Assembly: GCA_035935655.1 (NCBI GenBank)
Contig: DASYWW010000039.1
Coordinates: 62,001 to 126,000 of the forward strand
Direction of reading: 5' to 3'
DNA: 64,000 bases
Origin: Candidatus Bathyarchaeia archaeon
Lineage (GTDB): Archaea > Thermoproteota > Bathyarchaeia > 40CM-2-53-6
Of this stretch, positions 49,786-54,347 are shown piece by piece (the stretch's first letter is position 1; the number at the start of each line of letters is the position of its first letter). The position numbers and the translations under genes are program-made. The notes under the pieces are model-generated. The model was not told the DNA's origin, did not search any database, and saw only the letters and a list, made by a program, of their open reading frames with translations.

Positions 49786-50352
49786 ATGAACATAATCGGA
49801 GTCTCCCGTTCACCGACGCCCTACAAGGTCAGGACGCCAAAGGAACAGTATGTACGCTGCGGCGCGGACATTTTGCTCAACGCCGTCGGACACGATCTTG
49901 AGGGAGAGGCAACGTGCGTTATCTGCGGACGGCCAACCCGGCTGACGATCGTCGAAGGAAAAATCAGTAAACTTCAACCTGCCAGCGCAGTTCTCCACGT
50001 CGTAGAGATCCGGTCACTCGGACAGAATGCCCAGGTCGTATGCGAGGGCAGTCCTCTCTTCGACAAGAAAGGGTGCCTTCAAACTTGGTTGAAGACCTAC
50101 AAGGGACTACCCGGACGAGTCTACAGTCTTCAAGAGTACATGGCTCGAGCCTCAGAACTAATATCTGAGCGTGTAGGACCCGCCCGGTCGGAACCAGAGA
50201 ATTACCCCATCTCCAAGAGTGTTCAGGTCATGCGATGCGCTGATTGCGATTGTTCGCCGGCAGAATGCTCGAATTCAAGGTCTGCCATAGAATGCCCGAG
50301 CTGCCGGTTAGAATCCTGCTGCTGTTGGGTCGCTCCCACCTCGCCCTCCTAA
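49786..50352 (+). CDS. MerB-like (alkylmercury lyase-like) protein with extra Cys-rich tail
   Basis: A protein of 188 residues. CGADILLNAVGHDLEGEATC then CVICGRPTRLTIV and a later FDKKGCLQTWLKTYKGLPGR followed by VYSLQEYMARASELI follow the layout of alkylmercury lyase-like domains, though the diagnostic two Cys plus Asp of true MerB cannot be confirmed. The C-terminal 40 residues have CADCDCSPAEC and CPSCRLESCCCW, an unusual Cys cluster that may bind metal. No mercury genes are nearby. Confidence 0.5.
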   Translation: MNIIGVSRSPTPYKVRTPKEQYVRCGADILLNAVGHDLEGEATCVICGRPTRLTIVEGKISKLQPASAVLHVVEIRSLGQNAQVVCEGSPLFDKKGCLQTWLKTYKGLPGRVYSLQEYMARASELISERVGPARSEPENYPISKSVQVMRCADCDCSPAECSNSRSAIECPSCRLESCCCWVAPTSPS

Positions 50353-51264: not shown

Positions 51265-51585
51265 ACGTCGAAGACAGTCTATCTCCACAGCGTCTCGATA
51301 CGGGGGGTTACGAAGACCACAGAGTACGCCACGAGCGAGCGAATAGATGAGTCAATCGCCGCCCTGAGGGCAGTCTACAAGATCTCACTCGGCAGATATG
51401 TACAGGACTTGCTAGGTGGTACAGTCGATTCAGTCTCAGTGGCCAAGGACTCTCCGTACTGCTACTTCCACGCGAGACGGCTGGAAAAGTCGCTCTCGAT
51501 AACGATCAAGGAAAAGGATCGCATCGTAGAATTCTCGATGCCCCTGCACGAGGCCAAGAGGATTCTGGTTCCCCCTCGAACCTAG
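51265..51585 (+). CDS. conserved-looking protein with no ordinary start, probably ACG
   Basis: The frame reads 106 residues: SKTVYLHSVSIRGVTKTTEY, then SIAALRAVYKISLGRYVQDL and CYFHARRLEKSLSITIKEKD. It has no AUG, GUG or UUG before residue 40. ACG at 51265 lies two bases after the stop of the coiled-coil gene and gives M/T-SKTVYLHS, so coupling is likely. The end overlaps the convergent Ta0938-like gene by four bases. Family unknown. Missed by standard ORF calls. Confidence 0.6.
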   Translation, partial: TSKTVYLHSVSIRGVTKTTEYATSERIDESIAALRAVYKISLGRYVQDLLGGTVDSVSVAKDSPYCYFHARRLEKSLSITIKEKDRIVEFSMPLHEAKRILVPPRT

Positions 51586-51872
51586 GTCCTTTCGCTGAAC
51601 AGGTCTATCCGACCCTTCGAGTCAAACCGGATCGAGAAATTGTACCTCTTACCGCCAAGCAGGGCAGTGCACTCTCGTCCTCTGTAGTTTCCCGTCATTT
51701 TGATCTCATCGATTGTTTTCCATCCTGTTCTCTTCTTGACCTCTCTTATCATGTTCTTGAATTCGACGGCGCATATGTCGCAGCAGAAGAACATGCGTTG
51801 TCCTTCGATCGTTTCCCAGTAGTCGCCCCATGTTGCCTGGCATATCGCGCAGCCTTTCTCAGCTACTTTCAA
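51582..51872 (-). CDS. zinc-binding protein of the Ta0938 type
   Basis: A protein of 96 residues, TTG start. It has CAICQATWGDYWE near residue 8 and FFCCDICAVEFKNMI near residue 28, a Cys set as in the Thermoplasma Ta0938 family (known as zinc-binding, function unknown). The start overlaps the end of the diiron-protein gene by 14 bases on the same strand. Confidence 0.7.
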   Translation of the reverse strand: MKVAEKGCAICQATWGDYWETIEGQRMFFCCDICAVEFKNMIREVKKRTGWKTIDEIKMTGNYRGRECTALLGGKRYNFSIRFDSKGRIDLFSERT

Positions 51873-52761
51873 ACCGTCCGCTCCTCTCCAAGCGCGCCAT
51901 CAGATAACGATCAAAATAATCGATCGACCGAAGAAACGTCGCCTGGACATCATCCGTAATGCCATACAACCTCGAATATTTCTCGACCAGCCCCAGGGCC
52001 CGTTCCGAATGGCCCACATCAGCCTCGTAACCCTCCCGCAAGAACGCCTTCGCCTCCTTCGATATCTCATCATTATTCAATATCACCGGATCAAAATATC
52101 CGATACTAGCACCCTCACCCTTCAACTTCCGATTCGCAATTAATTCTAGACCGTGCATTGCCGCCAAGCCCTCGACCCAGTGATCATCCCGACAGATAGA
52201 GTCCCAGACTCGGATCGCCTCCCTCGTATCCTCCAAAGGCGCCATCCGAAACGCTTTCTCTCGATCTAGACCGAGGCTCTCACCCATCCTCAACAACAAC
52301 TCATAATGGCTCGGCTGACCTGATCCTACGCCACCGTATTCCGTGTTGATATTATCCAGTTCATACAAGACCACGTCCATCTCGTCTGTCCGGGCCATGA
52401 TGTAGCTGCATGACCGGACCCACTGACGGAGGAAATGCTGATGCTCAACAACATACCCCAACAACACCGCCCGGCTAGGATGCTGCAACGCGAGAACAAA
52501 CGGGTGCGGACTCGACCCATAGAACTTCTCGATAAAACGCCGCTTAACCCACGCCTCCAGACTCCCACCTCCCAGACTGAAAAATTCAGATAATAATTTC
52601 GAGAGAGTCTTCCGGTCAGATTTATTCTTGGTAATATTCCGGTTCAACCACATCACATGCCCCGCATCACTCCTCCCCGCCTCTGCAACAAAATGACCCG
52701 CAAGATCCTCAAAATCATCATGCTTCTGAAAACCCACACCACAGCTAGGACACTTCGTCAA
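51859..52761 (-). CDS. zinc-finger haem-oxygenase-like diiron protein (PqqC/CADD-like)
   Basis: A protein of 300 residues. Residues 1-25 hold CPSCG...H...H, a finger. The rest is an all-helical PqqC/TenA-like fold with the ligand pattern of haem-oxygenase-like diiron oxidases: VVEHQHFLRQW (Glu, His), YELDNINTEYG (Glu/Asp), PSHYELLLRM (His), and YEADVGHSERAL (Asp, His). Such enzymes use O2 for N-oxygenation, C-C cleavage or desaturation; the substrate here is unknown. It is the central gene of a coupled minus-strand cluster. Confidence 0.75.
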   Translation of the reverse strand: MTKCPSCGVGFQKHDDFEDLAGHFVAEAGRSDAGHVMWLNRNITKNKSDRKTLSKLLSEFFSLGGGSLEAWVKRRFIEKFYGSSPHPFVLALQHPSRAVLLGYVVEHQHFLRQWVRSCSYIMARTDEMDVVLYELDNINTEYGGVGSGQPSHYELLLRMGESLGLDREKAFRMAPLEDTREAIRVWDSICRDDHWVEGLAAMHGLELIANRKLKGEGASIGYFDPVILNNDEISKEAKAFLREGYEADVGHSERALGLVEKYSRLYGITDDVQATFLRSIDYFDRYLMARLERSGRFESS

Positions 52762-52775
52762 TCTTCTCCGATCTC

Positions 52776-52991
52776 CTACAGCGGGAAATCTTTCGGCAAC
52801 CGACCTCGAAGCTTCTGGTAATCAACATCAGACCAGTACTTTCCCCGAATATCTTCTAACATCTTCTTCAACTGATCAGCCGTCAAACCCCGAGCACTAC
52901 CAACCATTTCCACAGTATGCTCAAAGTCGTCATGACAAGAAGCATAACAGTTGCCCATTCCAGTCATGAGTTCTCGCTCCCTAGGAGTCAT
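52776..52991 (-). CDS. small Cys/His protein coupled to the diiron protein gene
   Basis: A protein of 71 residues from ATG 52991, which overlaps the stop of the preceding gene (ATGA). It has GNCYASCHDDFEHTVE, a CxxxCH pattern, and a helical end with LKKMLEDIRGKYW. The diiron-protein gene follows after 14 bases. A longer frame to 53219 is a shadow of the neighbour. Unknown; possibly a metal or substrate carrier. Confidence 0.65.
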   Translation of the reverse strand: MTPRERELMTGMGNCYASCHDDFEHTVEMVGSARGLTADQLKKMLEDIRGKYWSDVDYQKLRGRLPKDFPL

Positions 52992-53527
52992 GAGCTGTAG
53001 GCCTCCGCATGTCTTTCTTGAATCATTGGAATCGCAGTTTTTAACATCATACTCGCTCGGCTTGCGCTCTGAGCGGCCTGGAAAGAGAGCTCGTACTTCG
53101 ACCCGTTGCTCTTGAGGACAAATGATTCCGGGGTTTTCCATTCGATCACTTTCGGCAAGACCCAGACCCAATCGGAACCCGTTCGTACGACAATAGTGGT
53201 TCCTTTGAATCGAAGCCATCCTGGAGTCGGTCTTCTTGCTTTTACGAAGACGACCCAGAAAGGCAATCCAATGTAGGTGACGATCGAAGTCGTTCCCAGA
53301 ACGATCCCGAATAGACCAAAGCCACTCAAGAATGCCAGGATGAAGCCTCCAATGATGAACCTGAACAGAAAGACGTACAGCTGAATCATAACGTGTCTTC
53401 CCGAGATGAGGAGCCGAACCTGAACTGGAAACTCTTCAACCGGAACTGATAGTTCCTCAAAAACCGAAAAACGCGCTTTGAGAATTGACGCTACCTGCAG
53501 GGCCTGATCGGAAGTCTTGAACCTCAA
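52988..53527 (-). CDS. membrane protein with PH-like domain
   Basis: A protein of 179 residues. N-terminal region about 45 residues, two spans (about 47-70 and 72-95: FIIGGFILAFLSGFGLFGIV), then a beta-rich domain (GWLRFKGTTIVVRTGSDWVW and VIEWKTPESFVL). The TTG start overlaps the previous stop (TTGA) and its own stop overlaps the next ATG (ATGA), which shows tight coupling. Confidence 0.7.
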   Translation of the reverse strand: MRFKTSDQALQVASILKARFSVFEELSVPVEEFPVQVRLLISGRHVMIQLYVFLFRFIIGGFILAFLSGFGLFGIVLGTTSIVTYIGLPFWVVFVKARRPTPGWLRFKGTTIVVRTGSDWVWVLPKVIEWKTPESFVLKSNGSKYELSFQAAQSASRASMMLKTAIPMIQERHAEAYSS

Positions 53528-53766
53528 GTGGCCGCGCTGAAAACTTGAACGGCTCCGATCCCGGTAACGCGAAAACTGTTAGGCGTTGTCCATGTCAGTC
53601 TACGCGGTCGTAGCCCGGTACAGCCTTCGCCTGAAAGAATACGAACTGAGTTATCTCTAAGCACGACGACTGCTGGAGTCCAGAGTTTTCCGCCCTTGGT
53701 CACAGCCCTTAGTGTGTCTCGAAGCGTGAACCATGGCCGTTTGACTTCTGCCTCAAACGAATCCAG
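53524..53766 (-). CDS. small beta-rich protein starting at CTG
   Basis: A protein of 80 residues: FEAEVKRPWFTLRDTLRAV, then KLWTPAVVVLRDNSVRILSG and RRLTWTTPNSFRVTG. The last part resembles IEWKTPESFVLKSNG of the next gene, so the two may share a PH-like fold. No AUG, GUG or UUG is available; CTG 53766 has AGAGGT six bases upstream. Its stop overlaps the TTG of the next gene. Not reported by ordinary ORF calls. Confidence 0.65.
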   Translation of the reverse strand: MDSFEAEVKRPWFTLRDTLRAVTKGGKLWTPAVVVLRDNSVRILSGEGCTGLRPRRLTWTTPNSFRVTGIGAVQVFSAAT

Positions 53767-53864
53767 ATAGGAACCTCTTGGCTGACTTCTAGGATTCCAC
53801 TAATCCTGTGATAAGTCTACAGTTGATGATGAGCAATTGCGCTGACCGAAGGCCCGTTCGAAGC

Positions 53865-53969
53865 TTACAGAGCAAGACTCGTGTTCTGATATTGTTGTTC
53901 TCTCGCATCTCCCATCAGATGTATCCACCTCTGCTGGGCTGAGAGTTTCACTTCGGCTAAGAACTTCAC
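53865..53969 (-). CDS. possible micro-protein
   Basis: A GTG-initiated frame of 34 residues (MKFLAEVKLSAQQRWIHLMG...). It looks protein-like but is short, without a TATA box or ribosome site I could identify. It lies between the divergent gene at 53985 and the cluster starting at 53766. Very uncertain. Confidence 0.25.
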   Translation of the reverse strand: MKFLAEVKLSAQQRWIHLMGDAREQQYQNTSLAL

Positions 53970-53984: not shown

Positions 53985-54347
53985 ATGGAAGAAGCGTGGA
54001 TGAAGATCATTACGAAAGCTAATGGAAAGCGCCTCAAGCCTTGGAAGATAGCTGATACCGTCTTCCATGCGGAAGAGATCGTGAGAGCAGAGCATTTGGA
54101 GCTGATCCAGAAAGCTCACCTGGTTCCACAGTCAGAACGGAAGAAACATGATGGTAGGGACGTGTTCGAGCCAGGAGAAGTCTTCTTCATAACAATAGAT
54201 ACAGAGAAAGGACCGACGAAAGTCGCCCACGTCCACTGGAAAACAATAGTGGACTGCGGAGAACACTACCGCTTCCTCAATCCAGACGGTACACTAGGAG
54301 AACGAGTGACTTCTGCAATCAAGGTTGGAAGAGAGTTTCGGCCTTAA
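53985..54347 (+). CDS. conserved hypothetical protein
   Basis: A protein of 120 residues, alpha/beta mix: WMKIITKANGKRLKPWKIAD, then GRDVFEPGEVFFITIDTEKG and KVAHVHWKTIVDCGEHYRFL. No membrane segment or known motif. Convergent with the AbiEii-like gene, ten bases apart. Confidence 0.6.
   Translation: MEEAWMKIITKANGKRLKPWKIADTVFHAEEIVRAEHLELIQKAHLVPQSERKKHDGRDVFEPGEVFFITIDTEKGPTKVAHVHWKTIVDCGEHYRFLNPDGTLGERVTSAIKVGREFRP

Follow-up and report, generated by a model that had tools for sequence, protein, structure and literature searches.

Five consecutive minus-strand frames, centred on a zinc-finger oxidase-like gene, raise the question of whether they encode one system, and if so what it oxidizes. 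The preliminary description had read them as a five-gene, membrane-associated oxidative pathway with a small metal- or substrate-carrying partner. The DNA analysed here (the window, 64,000 nucleotides) lies on contig C39 of a soil Bathyarchaeia-type MAG of 2.5 Mb, whose closest named relatives in a genome-collection scan were soil Bathyarchaeota MAGs and whose genome encodes a terminal oxidase.

Five frames and a split membrane-protein gene

All five frames are present in the sequence with the positions, overlaps and gaps first described, as follows.

51582..51872, minus strand: Ta0938-family protein, 96 residues (Pfam Ta0938, E 2.6e-38), TRASH-like, CxxC...CCxxC pattern, TTG start
51859..52761, minus strand: zinc-finger HDO-fold oxidase-like protein, 300 residues (TENA/THI-4/PQQC, E 1.1e-31), TTG start
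52576..52761, minus strand: N-terminal zf-C2H2_9 domain of the oxidase (E 2.8e-18; C4, C7, H23, H35; motif HVMWLNRN)
52776..52991, minus strand: small conserved protein, 71 residues, first gene of the module, invariant C15 and C19 (CxxxC)
52988..53527, minus strand: PH-like frame, 179 residues, two hydrophobic stretches
53524..53766, minus strand: CTG-start frame

Pfam assigned no family to the last three. The Ta0938 and oxidase genes overlap by 14 bases, a 14-base gap separates the oxidase gene from that of the 71-residue protein, and ATGA and TTGA overlaps follow further upstream.

As judged from the sequences of relatives, the CTG and PH-like frames (52988-53766) are one membrane-protein gene of about 260 residues that is split by a frameshift. 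In four relatives examined, both parts lie in a single continuous frame of 260-325 residues, the sequence of the CTG frame (42-63% identical) running directly into the PH sequence. Because the two parts share one frame in relatives, the TTGA overlap in the window marks a frameshift, either real or an assembly error. The codon statistics of the PH part are consistent with a coding origin. The gene comprises two PH-like halves, and its presumed CTG start is also found at three further loci (L088, L089 and L090) with no obvious in-frame ATG, GTG or TTG just upstream, which suggests that the CTG start is conserved.

This membrane gene does not belong with its neighbours. Just three of the 60 related genomes searched contained a homologue of the PH-like protein, the gene being rare even within the genus, and in the congener G202 the membrane gene and the oxidase module are on separate contigs (C4 and C41, respectively). 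Profile searches of the flanks detected no homologue of either part near the oxidase at any of 51 other loci. In relatives with an oxidase 84-92% identical, DNA similarity spans the three remaining genes, ends, and restarts only upstream of about 53917, and the stretch 52991-53917 aligned with no close relative. Given the missing homologues beside the oxidase elsewhere and the break in DNA similarity, the membrane component is incidental to the module. The proposed five-family, membrane-associated chain was thus abandoned, since two of its frames are one broken, unrelated gene; the same neighbourhood comparison that sets these frames apart keeps the small protein, the oxidase and the Ta0938-family protein together.

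Two plus-strand genes also lie near the module. One (53985-54347) encodes a conserved orphan of 120 residues that is present at the loci of 8/8 close relatives. The other (49786-50352) encodes a MerB-like protein (alkylmercury lyase, PF03243), a homologue of which is located 144 bases upstream of the module at locus L013 and another close to the module at L054.

Linkage and distribution of the three-gene module

The genes of the 71-residue protein, the oxidase and the Ta0938-family protein (51582-52991) form a genuine cassette, which is found mainly in archaea of soils and hot acidic places. A genome-collection scan with the family alignment yielded 51 loci, whose flanks were searched by iterated profile searches, spanning Bathyarchaeia, Thermoplasmatota, Nitrososphaerota and Sulfolobales as well as distant Actinobacteria and Bacillota. 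At all 49 loci where the sequence extends beyond the oxidase gene, a Ta0938-like gene comes directly after it, and this holds even for the members from Bacillota and Actinobacteria, whose oxidases are only 24-29% identical. The gene of the 71-residue protein, which was found beside the module only, is immediately upstream of the oxidase at 32 of 50 assessable loci. These adjacencies bear out the earlier proposal of a genetic link between the enzyme, a small Cys protein and a metal protein of the Ta0938 type.

The two larger genes also co-occur across genomes. Among 200 Thermoproteota genomes, seven had a substantial oxidase match and the identical seven had a full-length Ta0938-family protein, while an eighth lacked a full-length Ta0938 and its sole oxidase match was a fragment with stops. 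G159, which is among the seven, has stops in its oxidase frame and an intact Ta0938 gene. Stop codons interrupt the oxidase frames of both G159 and G028 (L010, L011), suggesting decay or assembly error. Within the genus and family of the window, 12 related genomes gave an oxidase match and the triad was complete except on one truncated contig; the oxidase was absent from all examined genomes of the same order or class outside that family.

Unbiased clustering of flanking frames revealed no fourth gene common beyond close relatives, the widely shared minus-strand frames being the opposite strand of the three genes themselves, and no substrate, reductase or pathway gene accompanies the module across loci. 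The tree of the module mixes phyla and requires only two changes in small-gene presence, which fits losses in a Sulfolobales group and in a Thermoplasmatales/Ferroplasma group. The small gene was apparently lost in thermoacidophilic lineages, although the tree does not fix the direction of change. The viral contigs searched contained no relative of the module, and a plasmid search gave only partial matches, 24% identical, in Pantoea.

Two variants were observed. A distant bacterial version (L061-L063 and L059; Actinobacteria, Bacillota) has only two genes, the oxidase and a Ta0938-like gene. The divergent module of Metallosphaera yellowstonensis (L055) retains the small gene, which the other Sulfolobales examined do not have; 77 bases upstream of this module lies a gene for a Rieske ferredoxin-like protein, possibly an electron donor.

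A link to oxygen is suggested by COX1, a strong gene for which is present in the window's own genome. COX1 was found in 8/8 genomes with any oxidase match versus 74/200 Thermoproteota genomes overall, and neither COX1 nor the module occurred in any same-order or same-class genome of the 200 drawn. This association rests mainly on two families and, since the genome sample is phylogenetically clumped, is support rather than proof.

Fold and candidate metal site of the oxidase

The AlphaFold2 model of the oxidase, built with 51 relatives, has a pLDDT of 94.4 and shows the all-helical fold of the heme-oxygenase-like dimetal oxidases (HDO). Foldseek ranked SSO2700 (4LQX, TM-score 0.93) first, followed by CADD, PqqC, BesC, TenA and UndA, and sequence-profile searches agreed. 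In an HMMER alignment with few gaps, the CADD residues E81, H88, E142, D178 and H181 correspond to E141, H152, E206, D248 and H251 of the oxidase. These five, together with E134, are invariant in 51/51 sequences and in three further bacterial members. The sixth HDO position, the α3 histidine (H174 in CADD), is Gly244 in the oxidase, Gly in 50/51 sequences and Ser or Thr in bacteria. The oxidase therefore keeps five of the six positions of the 3-His/3-carboxylate set, and E134 could supply a sixth ligand to the metal site first envisaged. Glu134 precedes E141 by two helical turns, at a position that is Leu in CADD. Considering that the α3 histidine is replaced by Gly and that Glu134 is invariant, the sequences could specify a 2-His/4-carboxylate site. 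Two metals are not assured with Gly at the sixth canonical position, and the enzyme might hold a single metal ion or, like PqqC, none. H203, one turn ahead of E206, is His in 50/51 sequences. The bacterial two-gene members (L061-L063, L059) keep all six candidate ligands, with Asn at H203 and Ser or Thr at G244.

In the zinc finger, C4, C7, H23 and H35 hardly vary across the family, and neither does the motif HVMWLNRN. We rejected thiaminase II activity of the TenA type: the TENA domain contains no active-site Cys, and the only nearly invariant Cys residues are C4 and C7 of the finger.

How many metals are bound separates the dimetal reading from one in which the oxidase is metal-free like PqqC and its substrate is a bound cofactor precursor such as a quinone. 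PqqC matches by both Foldseek and profile, one HDO ligand is absent, and Ta0939 carries PQQC as its older annotation (PMC1852104). However, five HDO ligand positions and E134 are invariant even in very divergent members, which would be unneeded without metal, and we consider a metal-free enzyme unlikely. Another reading takes the oxidase as a p-aminobenzoate synthase of the self-sacrificing CADD/PabS type that would supply folate-like cofactors in archaea. Among characterised proteins, the nearest by profile are CADD and further 4-aminobenzoate synthases (E 8e-14 to 4e-10), and Y103, Tyr in 50/51 sequences, occupies the place of Tyr43, which is essential in CADD. The residues consumed in that reaction are nevertheless missing: the position of the amine donor Lys152 (216) is Lys in 0/51, and the region of the sacrificial Tyr27 (columns 85-92) lacks Tyr in all 51. 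In addition, one metal ligand differs from CADD, and the CADD subfamily model TIGR04305 scored 32.6 bits against a cut-off of 200. A CADD-type synthase using Tyr27 and Lys152 was accordingly rejected, and pABA synthesis as such is highly improbable. It keeps a small place among the candidates because only one chorismate-binding enzyme is encoded in the genome, leaving no obvious further candidate for pabB, and because a Thy1/ThyX-family gene ends 3 bases ahead of the 71-residue protein gene at two loci (L019 and L020). A second similar-looking frame precedes the Thy1/ThyX gene there.

Partner proteins, proposed mechanism and comparison with known systems

The Ta0938-family protein scores 130.7 bits against a Pfam cut-off of 27 (PF11494), and the cysteines of its CxxC...CCxxC pattern (C8, C11, C30, C31 and C34) are invariant across 34 members. 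Weak, sub-threshold matches connect it to the TRASH and YHS domains, which are metal-handling domains. The 71-residue protein is predicted as a confident all-helical bundle (pLDDT 95) without any significant sequence or fold match. Its family invariants are C15, C19, F23, M29, R34 and a C-terminal LP..FP. Of the CxxxCH motif originally noted, only CxxxC is invariant; roughly half of the family has Gly or Gln instead of the His, by which we rejected a CX3CH c-type haem protein.

The two partners invite two further readings. The 71-residue protein could be the substrate of the enzyme, a peptide modified at its Cys pair in a methanobactin-type manner with Ta0938 as partner, as its position directly upstream and its strict bond to the enzyme might suggest for a small conserved two-Cys protein. 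It is, however, conserved and confidently folded throughout with no leader/core split, and the module survives without it in two large clades, making this very unlikely. Alternatively, the invariant zf-C2H2_9 domain with HVMWLNRN and the second zinc-binding-like, Cys-rich partner might bind RNA or another nucleic acid that the HDO domain hydroxylates. No nucleic-acid enzyme accompanies the module, the Thy1/ThyX association being confined to two loci, and we give such a role scarcely any weight.

We therefore lean, with some reserve, toward a self-contained, horizontally moving module in which an O2-activating HDO-fold dimetal enzyme works with an obligate Ta0938 partner and an accessory 71-residue protein. 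The core enzyme would most likely bind two transition-metal ions (Fe/Fe or Fe/Mn), activate O2 and oxidize a small substrate. The lability of HDO cofactors (PMC13108848) would be in keeping with a metal partner of their own. The Ta0938-family protein, encoded by the overlapping gene, would most likely deliver or hold metal for such a cofactor, or else complete the enzyme as a Zn-Cys subunit. The helical CxxxC protein would be an accessory redox or metal-handling partner in members from soil, which are presumably mesophilic, and one that thermoacidophiles could do without. More tentatively, the family may form a separate, mainly archaeal HDO branch with a 2-His/4-carboxylate dimetal site similar to that of ferritin-like diiron enzymes, requiring Ta0938 and, in soil archaea, the CxxxC protein; it would then be the first multi-component HDO system.

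Known relatives place this module next to two structural-genomics entries. SSO2700 of Sulfolobus solfataricus (4LQX, a TENA/THI-4 domain-containing protein) is about 50% identical to the oxidase over its full length, including the zinc finger, and has the same ligand pattern with Gly for the α3 His as well as the close structural match given above. Whereas the window has the small upstream gene, the Sulfolobaceae genomes examined lack it except for M. yellowstonensis. Ta0938 of Thermoplasma acidophilum (2FQH) belongs to the same family as the downstream gene (E 2.5e-21), and Ta0938 and Ta0939 have neighbouring locus numbers. Both were listed in 2007 among proteins common to Thermoplasmata and Sulfolobus (PMC1852104), the accessible text of which describes neither a function, nor the cassette, nor the 71-residue protein. 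Our literature search found no paper naming 4LQX or SSO2700, Ta0938 and Ta0939 in this 2007 list only, and no description of the cassette, of the small protein or of any function, so that the preliminary statement that no system of this composition has been described holds for the three-gene set. Two orphan structures of well-studied archaea thus gain a function-sized unit, and Sulfolobus species, being genetically tractable, allow metal count and oxidized substrate to be tested directly.

Among characterised enzymes, the CADD/PabS pABA synthases have the same HDO fold as the oxidase, which keeps five of their six metal ligands and the equivalent of the essential Tyr43. It differs from them in the Gly for the α3 His, the extra invariant Glu134, the missing sacrificial Tyr and Lys, the N-terminal zinc finger and the obligate Ta0938 partner. 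With UndA, BesC, SznF and HrmI it has the fold and most ligand positions in common. Those enzymes are reported from bacteria, and their ligand sets are 3H/3C or 3H/4C (PMC13108848). The family of the window oxidase, in contrast, occurs mainly in archaea, has 2H/4C as its predicted set, and points to an HDO branch beyond the described bacterial one.
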